Positions 2,928 through 6,801 of a stretch of DNA of 6,801 bases are shown piece after piece. The stretch comes from Bacteroidales bacterium (GTDB lineage Bacteria > Bacteroidota > Bacteroidia > Bacteroidales > F082): contig JAEEII010000266.1 of assembly GCA_016281295.1 (NCBI GenBank), positions 1 to 6,801 on the forward strand, in the 5' to 3' direction. The position numbers and the translations under genes were made by a program. The notes beneath the pieces are model-generated. The model was given only the letters and a program-made list of their open reading frames with translations. It did no database searches and had not been told where the DNA came from. How positions within the stretch are numbered: position 1 is the stretch's first letter; each line of letters starts with the position of its first letter.

Positions 2928-3248
2928 ATGACCGCCCTCCTCTGGCTCATCCAAAAAATCGCGCCCATCACCAACCTCGTCGGGCTGCTGGTGCTGCTCT
3001 CGGAAATCGCCTACGGCGACATCGGCATCGGGACGCACGTATATGCCCTCGCGGGCGGGCTCGCCCTCGCGGGGTTCGTCCTCGGGTTCACGAATTGGGC
3101 GTTGGATGTTCCCCCGAAACTCTTCTGGACCAAATCACGGGTGCAGCTCTTCGACAACCGCGTGGGCAACGCCTTCGGTTACGCCGTCATCTTCTTCCTG
3201 CTGCCGTTCTTCGTGGCGGGGGTGGCGTTCGTGGTGGGGAAATGGTGA
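2928..3248 (+). CDS. Repeated 106-aa three-helix membrane protein, copy 2
   Basis: This is a full-length copy of the gene at 576: 106 codons from ATG 2928 to TGA 3246-3248, with the same three predicted membrane segments and charged loop. Differences from copy 1 are L27I, V28A, N30G, L40A, F65L and V97A, plus a divergent tail (GVAFVVGKW in place of GAMTLVRKL). Many DNA changes are synonymous (for example gac/gat, tcg/tca and caa/cag between 3093 and 3175), so the protein sequence appears to have been kept under selection. Similarity to copy 1 begins at about the ATG; the upstream sequence is unrelated and AT-rich. The first repeat palindrome starts 3 nt after the stop. It is probably an inner-membrane protein; the family was not recognised. 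Confidence 0.8.
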   Translation: MTALLWLIQKIAPITNLVGLLVLLSEIAYGDIGIGTHVYALAGGLALAGFVLGFTNWALDVPPKLFWTKSRVQLFDNRVGNAFGYAVIFFLLPFFVAGVAFVVGKW

Positions 3249-3250
3249 TG

Positions 3251-3483
3251 GAACCCCTACGGGGTTCTGCGGAACATCGTGGGGAACCGCACCGGGCTAC
3301 AGACATTGAACCCCTAACGGGGTTCATGGGGATGACGGAACGTGCATGCCATCATCCCCGTAAGGAAAACATTATCCGAGTAAACGGTTCCTACAAAAGA
3401 ACACGCCGCCATCCCCGTAGGGAATCCATATCTGTAGCGGGATCCGTGTCGGCGCGCCCGCATCATAACCCCATTAGGGGTTA
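3251..3483. repeat. REP-like palindrome array A (5 units)
   Basis: Five palindromes sit at a near-constant pitch. P1 is gaacccctacggggttc (3251-3267) and P2 is gaacccctaacggggttc (3308-3325). P3 is a damaged atccccgtaagga (3354-3366), P4 is atccccgtaggga (3411-3423) and P5 is taaccccattaggggtta (3466-3483). Centre-to-centre distances are about 57, 45, 57 and 57 bp. The P1-P2 spacer is 40 nt and holds ctacagacatt, the reverse complement of the 'atctgtagc' motif that follows P4. Units therefore occur in both orientations, as in BIMEs. Another inter-palindrome segment holds a small hairpin (ggatcc/ggcgcgcc region, about 3439-3459). No ORF here looks real. Confidence 0.8.
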
Positions 3484-3500
3484 CACGTTTGATGAAATAT

Positions 3501-3742
3501 CGGAAATCGGTCACATCGGCATCGGGACGTACGTATATGTCCTCGCGGGTGGGCTCGCGCTCGCGGGGGTCATCCTGGGGTTCACGAATTGGGCGTTGGA
3601 CGTTCCCCCGAAATTCTTCTGGACCAAATCGCGGGTGCAACTCTTTGACAACCGCGTGGGCAACGCCCTCGGCTACGCCGTCATCTTCTTCCTGCTGCCG
3701 TTCTTCGTGGCGGGGGTGGCGGTTGTGGTGGGGAAATGGTGA
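3501..3742 (+). pseudogene. Repeated membrane protein, copy 3, 5'-truncated
   Basis: Reading from about 3501, the frame ending at TGA 3740-3742 gives SEIGHIGIGTYVYVLAGGLA and continues to the tail GVAVVVGKW. It thus covers residues from about 25 to the end of the 106-aa protein, with two residues missing near the YGD position. The first transmembrane segment and the start codon are absent. The sequence upstream is palindrome P5 and its flank, and no in-frame ATG, GTG or TTG lies between that and the conserved part. It is therefore almost certainly not expressed as the normal protein. The remaining frame has no stops, so the truncation is probably recent. Its middle matches copy 1 and its tail matches copy 2. 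Confidence 0.8.
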
Positions 3743-3744
3743 TG

Positions 3745-4086
3745 GAACCCCTGACGGGGTTCTGCGGAACATCGTGGGGGACCGCACCGGGCTACAGATA
3801 TTGAACCCCTAACGGGGTTCATGGGGATGACGGAACGTGCATGCCATCATCCCCGTAAGGAAAACATTATCCGAGGAAACGGTTCCTACAAAAGAACACG
3901 CCATCATCCCCGTAGGGGATCCATATCTGTAGCGGGATCCGTGTCGGCGCGCCCGCACAACCCCGTCAGGGGTTCCATGTCTGTAGCAACGGGTTGCACA
4001 TCGCGTCCGCCACAACCCCGGTGGGGGGTGCATGCCCGTGGAAACGAATCCCAACAATCGTTCGTCACATCCCCATTCGGGGCATT
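3745..4086. repeat. REP-like palindrome array B (7 units), 3' of the transposase gene
   Basis: The units are P6 gaacccctgacggggttc (3745-3762), P7 gaacccctaacggggttc (3803-3820), P8 atccccgtaagg (3849-3860), P9 atccccgtaggggat (3906-3920, perfect), P10 aaccccgtcaggggtt (3959-3974), P11 aaccccggtggggggt (4014-4029) and P12 atccccattcggggcat (4069-4085). The pitch is 53-58 bp except for one step of about 45. P6-P10 copy array A; P11 and P12 are additional. The P9 and P10 spacers both start with cat(a/g)tctgtagc and carry a second hairpin. After P10 this is gcaac-gg-gttgc (about 3986-3997). After P11 it is acgaa...ttcgt. Three-part units of palindrome, motif and hairpin repeat up to the end of the minus-strand transposase gene. 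Confidence 0.8.
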
Positions 4087-4125
4087 TGTATATGCCGAAT
4101 CGAATCCGTAAGGAAGGACCGATTG

Positions 4126-4587
4126 TTACAACACGGGATGGAAAATGTATTGTTCGTCATAATCAACGCCAAAATCATTTAGAATTTTGACATATTCTTC
4201 CTGGAATGTCTTCTTTTTGTGATGTTGAACCTGATTCTCGATATAGCTCGCCACATTCGGGATGGCGGATCTGGCGTAGCTGAAAACCCCGTACCCATTC
4301 TGCCAGGAAAACCAACCTGGACGATAGAATTTCTTGTTAATCCACAAAGTGGAGCTACGTTTCACATCAGCCATCAACGAGGCACAAGAAACATCTGGGT
4401 TCATACCAGTCAAAATATGGATATGATCTGCCACTCCTCCAATGCTCAACAGCTTGCATCCGTGATTGGTGATGCACCCCGTCATGTATTTGTACAATTC
4501 TTCCTTCCAATCGGGTTGGATAAGACACTGTCTGTGTTGTACAGCGAAAATGTAATGGTGGTAAATCTGAGAATACGTATTTGCCAT
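4126..4587 (-). CDS. IS200/RAYT-type HUH Y1 transposase, 153 aa
   Basis: This is a complete single-domain Y1 transposase (Transposase_17/COG1943 type), with a length typical of the family. The visible features are the HUH motif DHIHIL (H55, H57), which holds the metal ion; the WQNGYGVFSYA segment (about 95-105); and the catalytic-tyrosine helix SYIENQVQHHKKKTFQEEY, with Y115 the likely nucleophile. These enzymes cut and join single-stranded DNA at hairpins; RAYT members are domesticated relatives linked to genomic REP palindromes. No tnpB or guide-RNA-like partner gene is present. The gene lies between palindrome arrays B and C, with atcccc/ggggat or gaacccc/ggggttc hairpins on both sides. 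Start ATG 4587 is supported by the family-typical N-terminus MANTYSQIYHHYIFAV. It looks intact, so it may be active. The distinction between RAYT and plain IS200 rests on the context. Confidence 0.9.
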   Translation of the reverse strand: MANTYSQIYHHYIFAVQHRQCLIQPDWKEELYKYMTGCITNHGCKLLSIGGVADHIHILTGMNPDVSCASLMADVKRSSTLWINKKFYRPGWFSWQNGYGVFSYARSAIPNVASYIENQVQHHKKKTFQEEYVKILNDFGVDYDEQYIFHPVL

Positions 4588-4613
4588 AATTTTTTATTTT
4601 TTTTAATTTGCTG

Positions 4614-4621
4614 CAAAAATA
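4614..4621 (-). promoter_or_regulatory. Candidate -7 box for the transposase gene
   Basis: Read on the minus strand this is TATTTTTG, a full match to the Bacteroidota -7 consensus TAnnTTTG. It lies 26 nt before the transposase start codon in an AT-rich leader. No convincing TTTG -33 element is at the proper distance, so the call rests on the -7 box and position only. Confidence 0.4.
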
Positions 4622-4655
4622 CAAAATTTCATAACATGTTGATAATCAAATATTT

Positions 4656-4675
4656 ATTTACAATTAATTGTAAAT
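4656..4675. repeat. 20-bp perfect palindrome in the transposase leader
   Basis: Half-site atttacaatt is followed immediately by its reverse complement aattgtaaat, with no loop. It lies in the AT-rich stretch 4588-4727, which contains no ORF of note. Its distance to the transposase start (about 70 nt upstream on the minus strand) and its symmetry suit a dimeric operator. A structured end of the original IS200-like element is the alternative. Confidence 0.5.
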
Positions 4676-4730
4676 TTTATCTGCGATATGCTGCGTTTTT
4701 TTTGTTTTGTTGCATTTTAAAATATCGATG

Positions 4731-4823
4731 GAACCCATACGGACAGGGAACCCCTGACGGGGTTCTGCGGAACATCGTGGGGGACCGCACCTGGCTACAG
4801 ACATTGAACCCCTGACGGGGTTC
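4731..4823. repeat. REP-like palindrome array C, 5' of the transposase gene
   Basis: A damaged unit gaacccatacgga (4731-4743) is followed by two perfect palindromes gaacccctgacggggttc, at 4748-4765 and 4806-4823. The two are joined by a 40-nt spacer nearly identical to those at 3268-3307 and 3763-3802 (tgcggaacatcgtggg, then ggctacaga.att). The dyad of two palindromes around a fixed 40-nt spacer therefore occurs three times in the window. The boundary between the AT-rich transposase leader and the repeat DNA is sharp at about 4728. Confidence 0.8.
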
Positions 4824-4891
4824 AAAGGGGGCAACGGAACGTGCCCGCCACAACCCATTCACGCCATCATCGCGATTATCGAAAATTATGT

Positions 4892-5791: not shown

Positions 5792-5805
5792 TGATTTAAT
5801 GGTAG

Positions 5806-5849
5806 GGGCGTATCGAATACGCCCTGTATTAGAGGCGTATCGAACACGC
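5806..5849. terminator. Palindrome pair between convergent genes; possible bidirectional terminator or second REP family
   Basis: The first hairpin has perfect 8-bp arms, gggcgtat and atacgccc, around cga (5806-5824). The second, gcgtat-cga-acacgc (5836-5849), is a copy with one arm mismatch. Both share the core gcgtatcga and sit in the 64-nt gap between the tcdA stop and the symporter stop. A strong stem between two convergent 3' ends suits transcription termination in both directions, although no long T-run follows. The repetition and core sequence also suggest a dispersed palindromic repeat, different from the gaacccc family. Confidence 0.5.
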
Positions 5850-5855
5850 ACTACA

Positions 5856-6801
5856 TTATCCAATTATTCCCGACACCAGAATCACTATCAGGGCGATTGG
5901 GGCAACGAAGCGCAGGATGAAGTAGTAAAGCTCGAAAAGTTTCCCTTTCAGCGCGCCGCCGTTGGTGATTTCGTCTTTGACTTCGACTTTCGGGTAGAAC
6001 CAGCCGAGGAAGATGGTCGTCGCCAGCGCACCGATAGGCATCAGGTAGGAGGCGGTGACGAGGTCGAAGAGGTCGAAGATGGTGCGGTCGAAAAGGGTCC
6101 AGTGCTTGATGGGGCCGAACGACAGGGTGCAGAATATGCCGATGACGAAGATGCTGATCATGCTGATGATCGAGCTTTTGCGGCGGCTCCAGTGGAGTTC
6201 TTCCACGGAGAAGGCCACGATGATTTCCTGCAGGGAAATGGTGGAGGTGAGCGCGGCAATGCCTAACAGCACGAAGAAGATGGCGGCGAACAAGGCCCCC
6301 ATCGGCATACTGTTGAAAACGTTGGGCAGCACCACATAGACGAGTTGCGGGCCGGCGGCGGGGTCCATGCCGAAGGAGAAGACCGCCGGGAAAATCACCA
6401 CTCCCGCCAATATCGCCACCAAGAGGTCGCACACGGAAATCCACAGGCTTGTCTTGAACAGGGAATCTTCTTTGCGGATGTAGGAACCGTAGGTCACCAT
6501 CGCGCCCATACCGAGACTAAGCGAGAAGAACGATTGTCCCAACGCGCCTAACACGCCCGCGCCGGTCAGCTTGCTGAAATCGGGCTTGAAGAGGAACTGC
6601 AGTCCCTCTTTCGCGCCTGGCAACGTCAATGAACGGACAACCATCAGCAACAGCAAGAAGAAGAGCACCGGCATCAGAATCTTGGAGATCTTCTCAATGC
6701 CCTTCTGCACACCGAAGGAAATCACTAACGCGGTGAGTATCAGGAAACAAAATTGATACAGCAACGGCCAGAACGAACCGGCGGTGAAGGAGGCGAAGGC
6801 A
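5856..6801 (-). CDS. Sodium-dependent symporter of the NSS/SNF family (5' end beyond the window)
   Basis: The minus-strand frame is open from the right edge to TAA at 5856-5858, giving about 314 C-terminal residues and starting mid-protein at AFASFTAGSFWPLL. NSS proteins have the LeuT fold and import amino acids or related solutes with Na+ across the inner membrane. Recognisable parts are the TM5 stretch GVQKGIEKISKILMPVLF, then the unwound TM6 region LGQSFFSLSLGMGAMVTYGS, whose Thr/Gly pattern matches LeuT's substrate and Na1 site. The TM8 motif GIAALTSTISLQEIIVAF carries the Thr-Ser pair of the Na2 site. Strongly hydrophobic segments run to the end (FVAPIALIVILVSGIIG). Substrate cannot be told from this part. 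TM1, with the rest of the Na+ sites, lies outside the window. The gene is intact as far as seen and is not functionally linked to tcdA. Confidence 0.92.
   Translation of the reverse strand, partial: AFASFTAGSFWPLLYQFCFLILTALVISFGVQKGIEKISKILMPVLFFLLLLMVVRSLTLPGAKEGLQFLFKPDFSKLTGAGVLGALGQSFFSLSLGMGAMVTYGSYIRKEDSLFKTSLWISVCDLLVAILAGVVIFPAVFSFGMDPAAGPQLVYVVLPNVFNSMPMGALFAAIFFVLLGIAALTSTISLQEIIVAFSVEELHWSRRKSSIISMISIFVIGIFCTLSFGPIKHWTLFDRTIFDLFDLVTASYLMPIGALATTIFLGWFYPKVEVKDEITNGGALKGKLFELYYFILRFVAPIALIVILVSGIIG

Follow-up and report, generated by a model that had tools for sequence, protein, structure and literature searches.

What relationship, if any, exists between a single transposase gene and the palindromes that bracket it on both sides in a Bacteroidales genome? 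The question is raised by a stretch of 6,801 nucleotides (contig JAEEII010000266.1 of assembly GCA_016281295.1, hereafter called the window in its entirety), whose one intact Y1 HUH transposase gene, tnpA, lies between palindrome arrays. A preliminary description had taken the gene for a REP-associated tyrosine transposase (RAYT), where REP denotes repetitive extragenic palindromic elements, and had proposed that the palindromes are its substrate. We believe that the locus is probably a REPtron-like unit, in which a TnpA protein of TnpAY1 subclass 1.2 is joined to a family of hairpins, most likely its targets for binding and cutting in single-stranded form. The best reading is a variant of REP-type systems, and not a RAYT system as such.

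The palindromes of the window are real and far exceed what would be expected by chance. Noncoding sequence from it (800 nt, formed by joining three stretches) contains 9 non-overlapping perfect stems of at least 6 bp, 7 of at least 7 bp and 3 of at least 8 bp; in 300 dinucleotide shuffles of the same sequence, the respective means are 1.42, 0.38 and 0.10, and the highest counts 6, 3 and 2. Counting by pattern gives 11 CCCC-N3-5-GGGG cores, all within 3254-4820, and three degenerate palindromes can be read by eye near 3356, 3411 and 3851, which together reach the 14 originally reported. The pitch is mostly 53-57 bp, close to the 53-58 bp given before, and the arm letters do vary as claimed (GAACCCC, TGAACCCC, AACCCC, TAACCCC and ATCCCC) with pairing retained. 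A regular feature that the preliminary description does not include is a CTACAGAYAT tag, with GTAG on the opposite strand, which recurs in either orientation at a constant spacing from the loop. No match was found in Rfam at gathering thresholds, and the units were scored in bits with R1, a covariance model of the tagged hairpin. The features are as follows.

4126..4587, minus strand: Y1 HUH transposase gene, 153 aa, TnpAY1 subclass 1.2 type by its motifs DHIH, WQ and YIENQVQHH (Pfam PF01797, 2.2e-23; NCBIfam models; motifs compared with Table 1 of PMC6006769)
3251..3267, no strand: hairpin GAACCCC-TAC-GGGGTTC without CTAC tag, first of block 1 on the downstream side of tnpA (core pattern)
3294..3327, plus strand: tagged unit, CTACAGACAT followed by a hairpin with loop TAAC (R1 40.7 bits)
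3408..3440, minus strand: tagged unit with imperfect stem and loop TAC (R1 16.3 bits, E 0.03)
3464..3497, minus strand: hairpin TAACCCC-loop-GGGGTTA, tag not conserved, last of block 1 (core pattern; R1 17.1 bits, E 0.022)
3745..3762, no strand: hairpin GAACCCC-TGAC-GGGGTTC without CTAC tag, first of block 2, the duplicate of block 1 (core pattern; partial R1 match, 21.0 bits)
3789..3822, plus strand: tagged unit, CTACAGATAT followed by a hairpin with loop TAAC (R1 42.3 bits)
3903..3935, minus strand: tagged unit with loop TAC (R1 23.3 bits)
3956..3989, minus strand: tagged unit closest to tnpA downstream, loop TGAC, tag on the gene side (R1 39.0 bits)
4016..4082, no strand: two further CCCC...GGGG cores (4016 and 4071), end of block 2 (core pattern)
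4748..4765, no strand: hairpin GAACCCC-TGAC-GGGGTTC of block 3, upstream of tnpA (core pattern; partial R1 match, 20.8 bits)
4792..4825, plus strand: tagged unit upstream of tnpA, loop TGAC, tag on the gene side (R1 42.2 bits)
3254..3462, no strand: duplicated stretch, first copy (96% identical to 3749-3957, spacing 495)
3749..3957, no strand: duplicated stretch, second copy, single in relatives (96% identical to 3254-3462)

Although palindromes do flank one intact gene, the three blocks described earlier are not independent: through a tandem duplication of ~495 bp (96% identity over 209 nt), 3251-3483 and 3745-3974 are for the most part two copies of a block that is single in three relatives. 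At the syntenic loci of those relatives (L136, L137 and L138; TnpA 96-97% identical), both window copies match the same single stretch, and the duplication is thus absent there. The simplest ancestral layout has one hairpin block on each side of tnpA.

Comparison with other loci indicates that, in many Bacteroidota, this transposase family goes with hairpins built to a common plan. A scan of genome contigs confirmed at least 577 relatives, from which the best 80 loci were kept; the nearest among those listed, L001, comes from a sheep-rumen Bacteroidales metagenome-assembled genome and is 86% identical. Across the 80, the density of stems of at least 7 bp is 1.58 per kb up to 400 bp from tnpA and 0.41 per kb at distances above 2 kb. 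The commonest loops near the gene, counted blind and with no prior loop model, are (closing pair included) CGTAG (15), CGTTAG (13), CTAACG (9) and CTACG (5), none of which is among the 25 commonest loops far from tnpA. When 199 hairpins were chosen irrespective of any tag, 107 of them (92 + 15) had a CTAC starting 18 or 19 nt ahead of the loop, and the remaining CTAC occurrences in the counted range fall mostly one array pitch further out. We adopted as a working definition a stem of at least 5 bp, a loop of TAAC, TGAC, TCAC or TAC, and a tag of CTAC, TTAC or CTAT at 18-19 nt. Under this definition, a tagged hairpin lies within 300 bp of tnpA at 86 of 113 loci, and on both sides at 43, in a set that comprises the window and L001-L113 without L084, in which L001 and L081 denote a single place and closely related loci do not count as independent. 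Tagged copies number 188 in at most 67.8 kb near tnpA, whereas background sequence more than 2 kb from it has 3 in 941 kb. Of the nearest copies, 62 of 70 on the upstream side and 48 of 59 on the downstream side have the tag toward the gene. Plasmids gave 32 records, the best at 47% identity, and phages one record at 25%; of 21 pattern matches in viral contigs, none was confirmed.

The stem letters vary between loci in step with the protein. Arms share at least 6 of 7 letters in 12% of 510 locus pairs at 50-60% TnpA identity, in 93% of 46 pairs at 70-90%, and in all 13 pairs above 90%. A Mantel test of arm against TnpA identity gives r of 0.397 for the 45 loci with at least two hairpins (0 of 5000 permutations), and the other sets give 0.276 for 67 loci (0 of 5000) and 0.461 for 27 loci of the bacterial family; these sets omit five loci with stops or frameshifts (L043, L052, L056, L078 and L100) and include L084, of a distant lineage. 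Arm letters thus appear to follow TnpA identity, with linked descent as a contributor inseparable from it here. The same is seen inside one genome, G001, where several tnpA paralogues each have different adjoining hairpins (L081, L082 and L083). We also examined an alignment, A3, of 41 tetraloop units hand-picked from 87 tagged candidates. Pairing holds in 92.7% of its cells, and its covariation score of 0.622 compares with 0.184 for shuffled controls (0 of 500) and with no more than 0.14 for slid ones. This pairing is built in, since only candidates with a perfect stem of at least 6 bp were admitted. Letters change on both sides in five of seven pairs, the two loop-adjacent pairs being invariant, a count that demonstrates differences in letters between units, and not selection for pairing. 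The pairing of hairpin and transposase that the preliminary description had put forward for Bacteroidota stands at many loci.

A distant Y1 lineage provides a useful control. From many loci of this lineage in the same bacterial family (29-34% identical), we picked 20 (L142-L161), which include at least two near-duplicate pairs. Hairpin density beside these genes is similar to that beside subclass 1.2 genes (3.97 vs 3.79 per kb). The TAAC/TAC-type loop, however, occurs in 0 of 62 hairpins there, and in 50 of 95 next to the family's subclass 1.2 genes. Thus, the hairpin class goes with the TnpA lineage, and not with the genome or intergenic position alone. The distant lineage has hairpin classes with stems GCGTGCC, GCATCTC and others and with loops such as GGA/TCC and TTT, and is apparently a second pairing of transposase and hairpin.

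A site that can be compared with and without the cassette is the gap between a kinase gene and tRNA-Thr, where the cassette of G001 sits. The kinase was found in 82 of 104 genomes of the family at E 1e-100, and 30 loci were fetched and 15 examined. Hairpins and tnpA follow the kinase in G001, G004 and G022 (the G004 contig stops before the tRNA). In ten others, tRNA-Thr comes soon after the kinase, with neither such a hairpin nor tnpA (G008, G027, G005, G028, G024, whose contig ends within the tRNA, G026, G025, G018, G021 and G029). Two more, G011 and G016, lack tnpA and show no tRNA within reach; hairpins are present in G016, and G011 has none of this kind. Array and tnpA are therefore present or absent jointly at this site, which argues against a tnpA that landed beside pre-existing hairpins. 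Gain in one subclade and loss elsewhere would look alike here, and the exact cassette junctions are not definable. The TcdA-like gene that neighbours tnpA in the window itself was found in 3 of 12 genomes.

The RAYT label is the part of the preliminary description that is not supported. The NCBIfam model for REP-associated tyrosine transposases fails at 20.6 bits (cut-off 80), the catalytic motif YIENQVQHH reads Y---Q--HH and not the Y--NP of class 2, and the tag is on the side opposite to that of the canonical GTAG. The NCBIfam IS200/IS605 transposase model is passed at 60.9 bits (cut-off 55). Many homologues are annotated 'REP element-mobilizing transposase RayT', which we take to be the COG name, and we gave this label no weight. 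The motifs and the length of 153 aa match TnpAY1 subclass 1.2 as given in Table 1 of Quentin et al. 2018 (PMC6006769), and the WQ of the window protein departs from the W[TS] of subclass 1.1. Among 108 translated relatives (the window and L002-L113, minus the five loci with stops or frameshifts), Y---Q--HH is found in 105 and WQ in 107. As a separate observation, the tnpA matches at those five loci are interrupted in plain translation and are possibly decayed copies. An AlphaFold2 model of the window protein (mean predicted local distance difference test score of 86), which as a single chain is silent on any subunit swap of the tyrosine helix, has IS608 and ISDra2 TnpA as its top structure matches (E ~1e-7); the TnpAREP-REP complex 4er8 ranks 27th and has the lowest root-mean-square deviation (2.7) among the transposase matches shown.

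Like the published members of subclass 1.2, the proteins examined here have Y---Q--HH, WQ and DH[IV]H, are ~150 aa long (published, ~148), and occur at low copy number in Bacteroidetes (PMC6006769). In contrast, Table 1 of that work carries the entry 'REP: no', and its text describes the subclass as generally without typical terminal IS200 structures, whereas most copies here are hairpin-flanked, as the count of 86 of 113 loci attests; this entry is a descriptor, and not a defining trait, of the subclass. The REP search described there demanded GTAG or GTGG 0-2 nt 5' of the stem, and would thus have missed hairpins with a tag at 7-8 nt on the opposite side. In the open-licence literature that we searched, we found no report of hairpins associated with subclass 1.2.

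Given these affinities, it seems appropriate to question whether the cassette is an ordinary minimal IS200/IS605 insertion sequence, whose nearest hairpins are its ends, whose whole tnpA unit moves, and whose outer hairpins are debris of former ends. We consider this unlikely. The NCBIfam result, the retained Q of Y---Q and a fold closest by E-value to IS608 and ISDra2 speak for it, as do the presence or absence of the cassette as a block at one site and the position of the nearest tagged hairpins, which lie 63-100 bp from the gene at 31 of 70 upstream and 33 of 59 downstream loci. However, all ten family genomes with a TnpA copy at least 65% identical have exactly one such copy (in drafts, where repeats may collapse), and the tandem arrays and solo hairpins exceed the two ends that an insertion sequence would need. 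The conserved tag also lies between hairpin and gene. In IS200/IS605 elements, the cleavage sites lie outside the hairpins. Subclass 1.1 elements such as IS608 and ISDra2 resemble the present system in fold, in HUH and Y---Q motifs, in subterminal hairpins and in the NCBIfam model passed, and differ from it in having W[TS] in place of WQ and in lacking its tag inside the hairpins, its arrays, and its apparently single close copy per genome.

How widely the hairpins are dispersed also bears on the pairing. We ran R1 over the 104 family genomes, scoring 67 candidates per genome under strict filters that make all counts lower bounds, and obtained hairpins in 56 genomes, with up to 39 in one. By hand, 42 genomes were counted as tnpA-bearing (E ~1e-30 or better, or a shorter piece with at least 50% identity). 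Hairpin matches occur in 32 of these 42 versus 24 of the 62 others (Fisher p = 2.6e-4), and five or more in 17 of 42 versus 11 of 62 (p = 0.014), with kinship ignored in both tests. The expectation that hairpin number tracks the transposase is thus borne out in that hairpins are commoner where tnpA is present, but not in several hairpin-rich genomes in which none was detected. Among 16 genomes reached via tnpA loci, 11 have hairpins (28 in G001, 16 each in Flavobacterium cutihirudinis and F. daemonense, 9 in Dyadobacter sp. MSC1_007, 5 in Flavobacterium sp. J49, and 1-2 in six others). A strict pattern search of ten genomes was positive only for G001, at 8 sites. Confinement to this one locus, which had been named as a sign against the pairing, is not what is seen.

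Dispersed intergenic hairpins do exist. All 30 fetched R1 matches (of 82) lie outside open reading frames (ORFs) of at least 120 aa, which cover 75% of that sequence, although several of the 30 are neighbours of each other and some adjoin tnpA. With a limit of at least 80 aa (22 loci), several matches fall inside short ORFs, and both of those at L129 lie inside ORFs of ~205 and ~174 aa; ORF-based gene calls are unreliable in GC-rich repeats. At one G001 site, the flanks have 95-96% identity to sequence in G008 and G027 and correspond to two different places in each of those genomes, and the break lies ~4 nt beyond the tag of a hairpin unit. Either cutting near the tag or ordinary recombination could account for this single case. 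The suggestion that tnpA merely inserts beside hairpins that belong to the host (as terminators, mRNA ends or structural repeats), as some insertion sequences target REPs, could draw on the hairpin-rich genomes without detected tnpA and on the 30 matches outside long ORFs, but is improbable given that no such hairpin is present at the tnpA-less site in 10 of 10 relatives with a readable kinase-tRNA gap, that hairpin class tracks TnpA lineage both within G001 and across lineages, and that the nearest copies are mostly inverted with the tag toward the gene.

Several results nevertheless weigh against a REPtron-like unit of TnpA and its own hairpins. The stem pairing in A3 derives in part from how units were selected. 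The 24 hairpin-bearing family genomes without detected tnpA include some with many copies and no detected subclass-1.2-like tnpA (36 in G052, 33 in G051, 32 in G008, 31 in G050 and 11 in G047), and hairpins occur in 8 of 32 genomes without a Y1 match at E 1e-20. Conversely, R1 finds no hairpins in 10 of the 42 tnpA-bearing family genomes, or in 5 of the 16 genomes reached via tnpA loci, whether family members or not. A core-loop hairpin with a stem of at least 7 bp, demanded within 400 bp and with no tag rule, is present at 15 of the 32 loci from the family and 24 of the 80 from the scan, and thus at only 39 of 112. In Cytophagales, where the gene was found in 15 of 59 genomes at E 1e-35 (24 loci, of which L228 was already known and 23 are new), only 11 of the new loci satisfy the working definition, 7 of them on both sides, and 12 fail; the tag direction is also weaker, at 6:2 upstream and 6:4 downstream. 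A Persicobacter copy (one of L225/L226) has other hairpins and no tag.

G050 and G052 (L122, L123 and L126) contain many identical tagged hairpins, several at contig ends, and it is possible that a repeat-flanked tnpA was lost from these draft assemblies; the contig-end hairpins are possibly the ends of an unassembled mobile element. By eye, several of the 12 failing Cytophagales loci, among them L227 and L229, combine a GTAG or CTAC tag with adjacent hairpins of different loops, and a Bernardetia plasmid copy (the other of L225/L226) has a CTAC tag before a short hairpin with loop TCT. Because these off-loop hairpins are still tagged, the tag may be conserved more widely than the loop.

The mechanism that we propose for a REPtron-like unit starts from what comparison of sequences reveals, namely the architecture, the enrichment beside tnpA, the mostly gene-facing tags, the match of stem to TnpA, the joint presence at one site, and the copies outside long ORFs. 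The putative substrate is 5'-CTAC-N7-8-[stem]TAAC[stem]-3', or hairpin-N7-8-GTAG on the other strand, and either strand might be the one that is read. By analogy with TnpAREP, TnpA would read both loop and tag, binding the single-stranded hairpin by its loop and using the tag as a cleavage or guide site, and stem letters could confer clade specificity. Cleavage at or near the tag would allow units to be copied, to form tandems and to spread, and the tnpA cassette itself would rarely move. There is precedent for such recognition, since TnpAREP cuts at CT near the hairpin and, as far as PMC8266576 describes, two systems need particular loop letters.

These findings suggest that the hairpin-bracketed tnpA found in many Bacteroidota is an unrecognised cousin of the REP-hairpin systems best known from Proteobacteria. 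We lean, with some reserve, towards the broader view of a phylum-wide REP class, undescribed in the open-licence papers searched, composed of an IS200-near Y---Q--HH transposase and hairpins of reversed polarity (GTAG after the hairpin, with a near-invariant loop), in which loop and tag would be a lineage-wide code and the stem a clade-specific one, and which would be intermediate between mobile IS200 elements and domesticated RAYTs. REPtrons with class 2 RAYT/TnpAREP proteins share with it a Y1 gene flanked by a dispersed hairpin family, a GTAG-type tetranucleotide and, for two of them, the loop dependence just cited. Unlike the present system, they have Y--NP in place of Y---Q--HH, and a tag at the 5' foot (0-2 nt) in place of one 7-8 nt 3' of the hairpin on the GTAG strand. 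They often have more than 100 REP copies per genome; our two counts, both lower bounds, give at most 39 and 28. TIRtrons, with their TIRYT proteins, are similar in placing a Y1 gene between inverted palindromic repeats, some of them dispersed, but the published repeats carry other motifs (GGGGWSAS), and the TAAC loop and CTAC spacing are not among the features that the parts of PMC3733652 at hand describe.

Subclass 1.2 TnpA proteins had been described without insertion sequence or REP features, and so had no assigned substrate. There is now a candidate substrate of ~30 nt with near-invariant loop and tag positions, which makes the function of these proteins directly testable. If TnpA does cut these hairpins, then REP-type systems would span Bacteroidota under a different recognition rule, and searches requiring GTAG at the 5' foot of a hairpin could not detect such systems.

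Other repeats and genes of the window are noted here for completeness. An AT-rich palindrome of the TTTACAATTAATTGTAAA type lies at 4656-4675, on the upstream side of tnpA, with similar palindromes near tnpA in L087, L089 and L082, and could be regulatory. Between the convergent TcdA-like and SNF-type transporter genes, at 5803-5856, are two 27-nt copies of a TAGGGGCGTATCGAATACGCC-type palindromic repeat. A hypothetical protein of 106 aa without a Pfam match is encoded in two full copies (576-896 and 2928-3248; DNA 94% identical), and a 3' piece of its gene is found at ~3507-3742, within the duplication. Finally, positions 1238-2443 encode a 401-aa leucine-rich-repeat protein of the BspA type and contain internal repeats, one of them 237 nt long.

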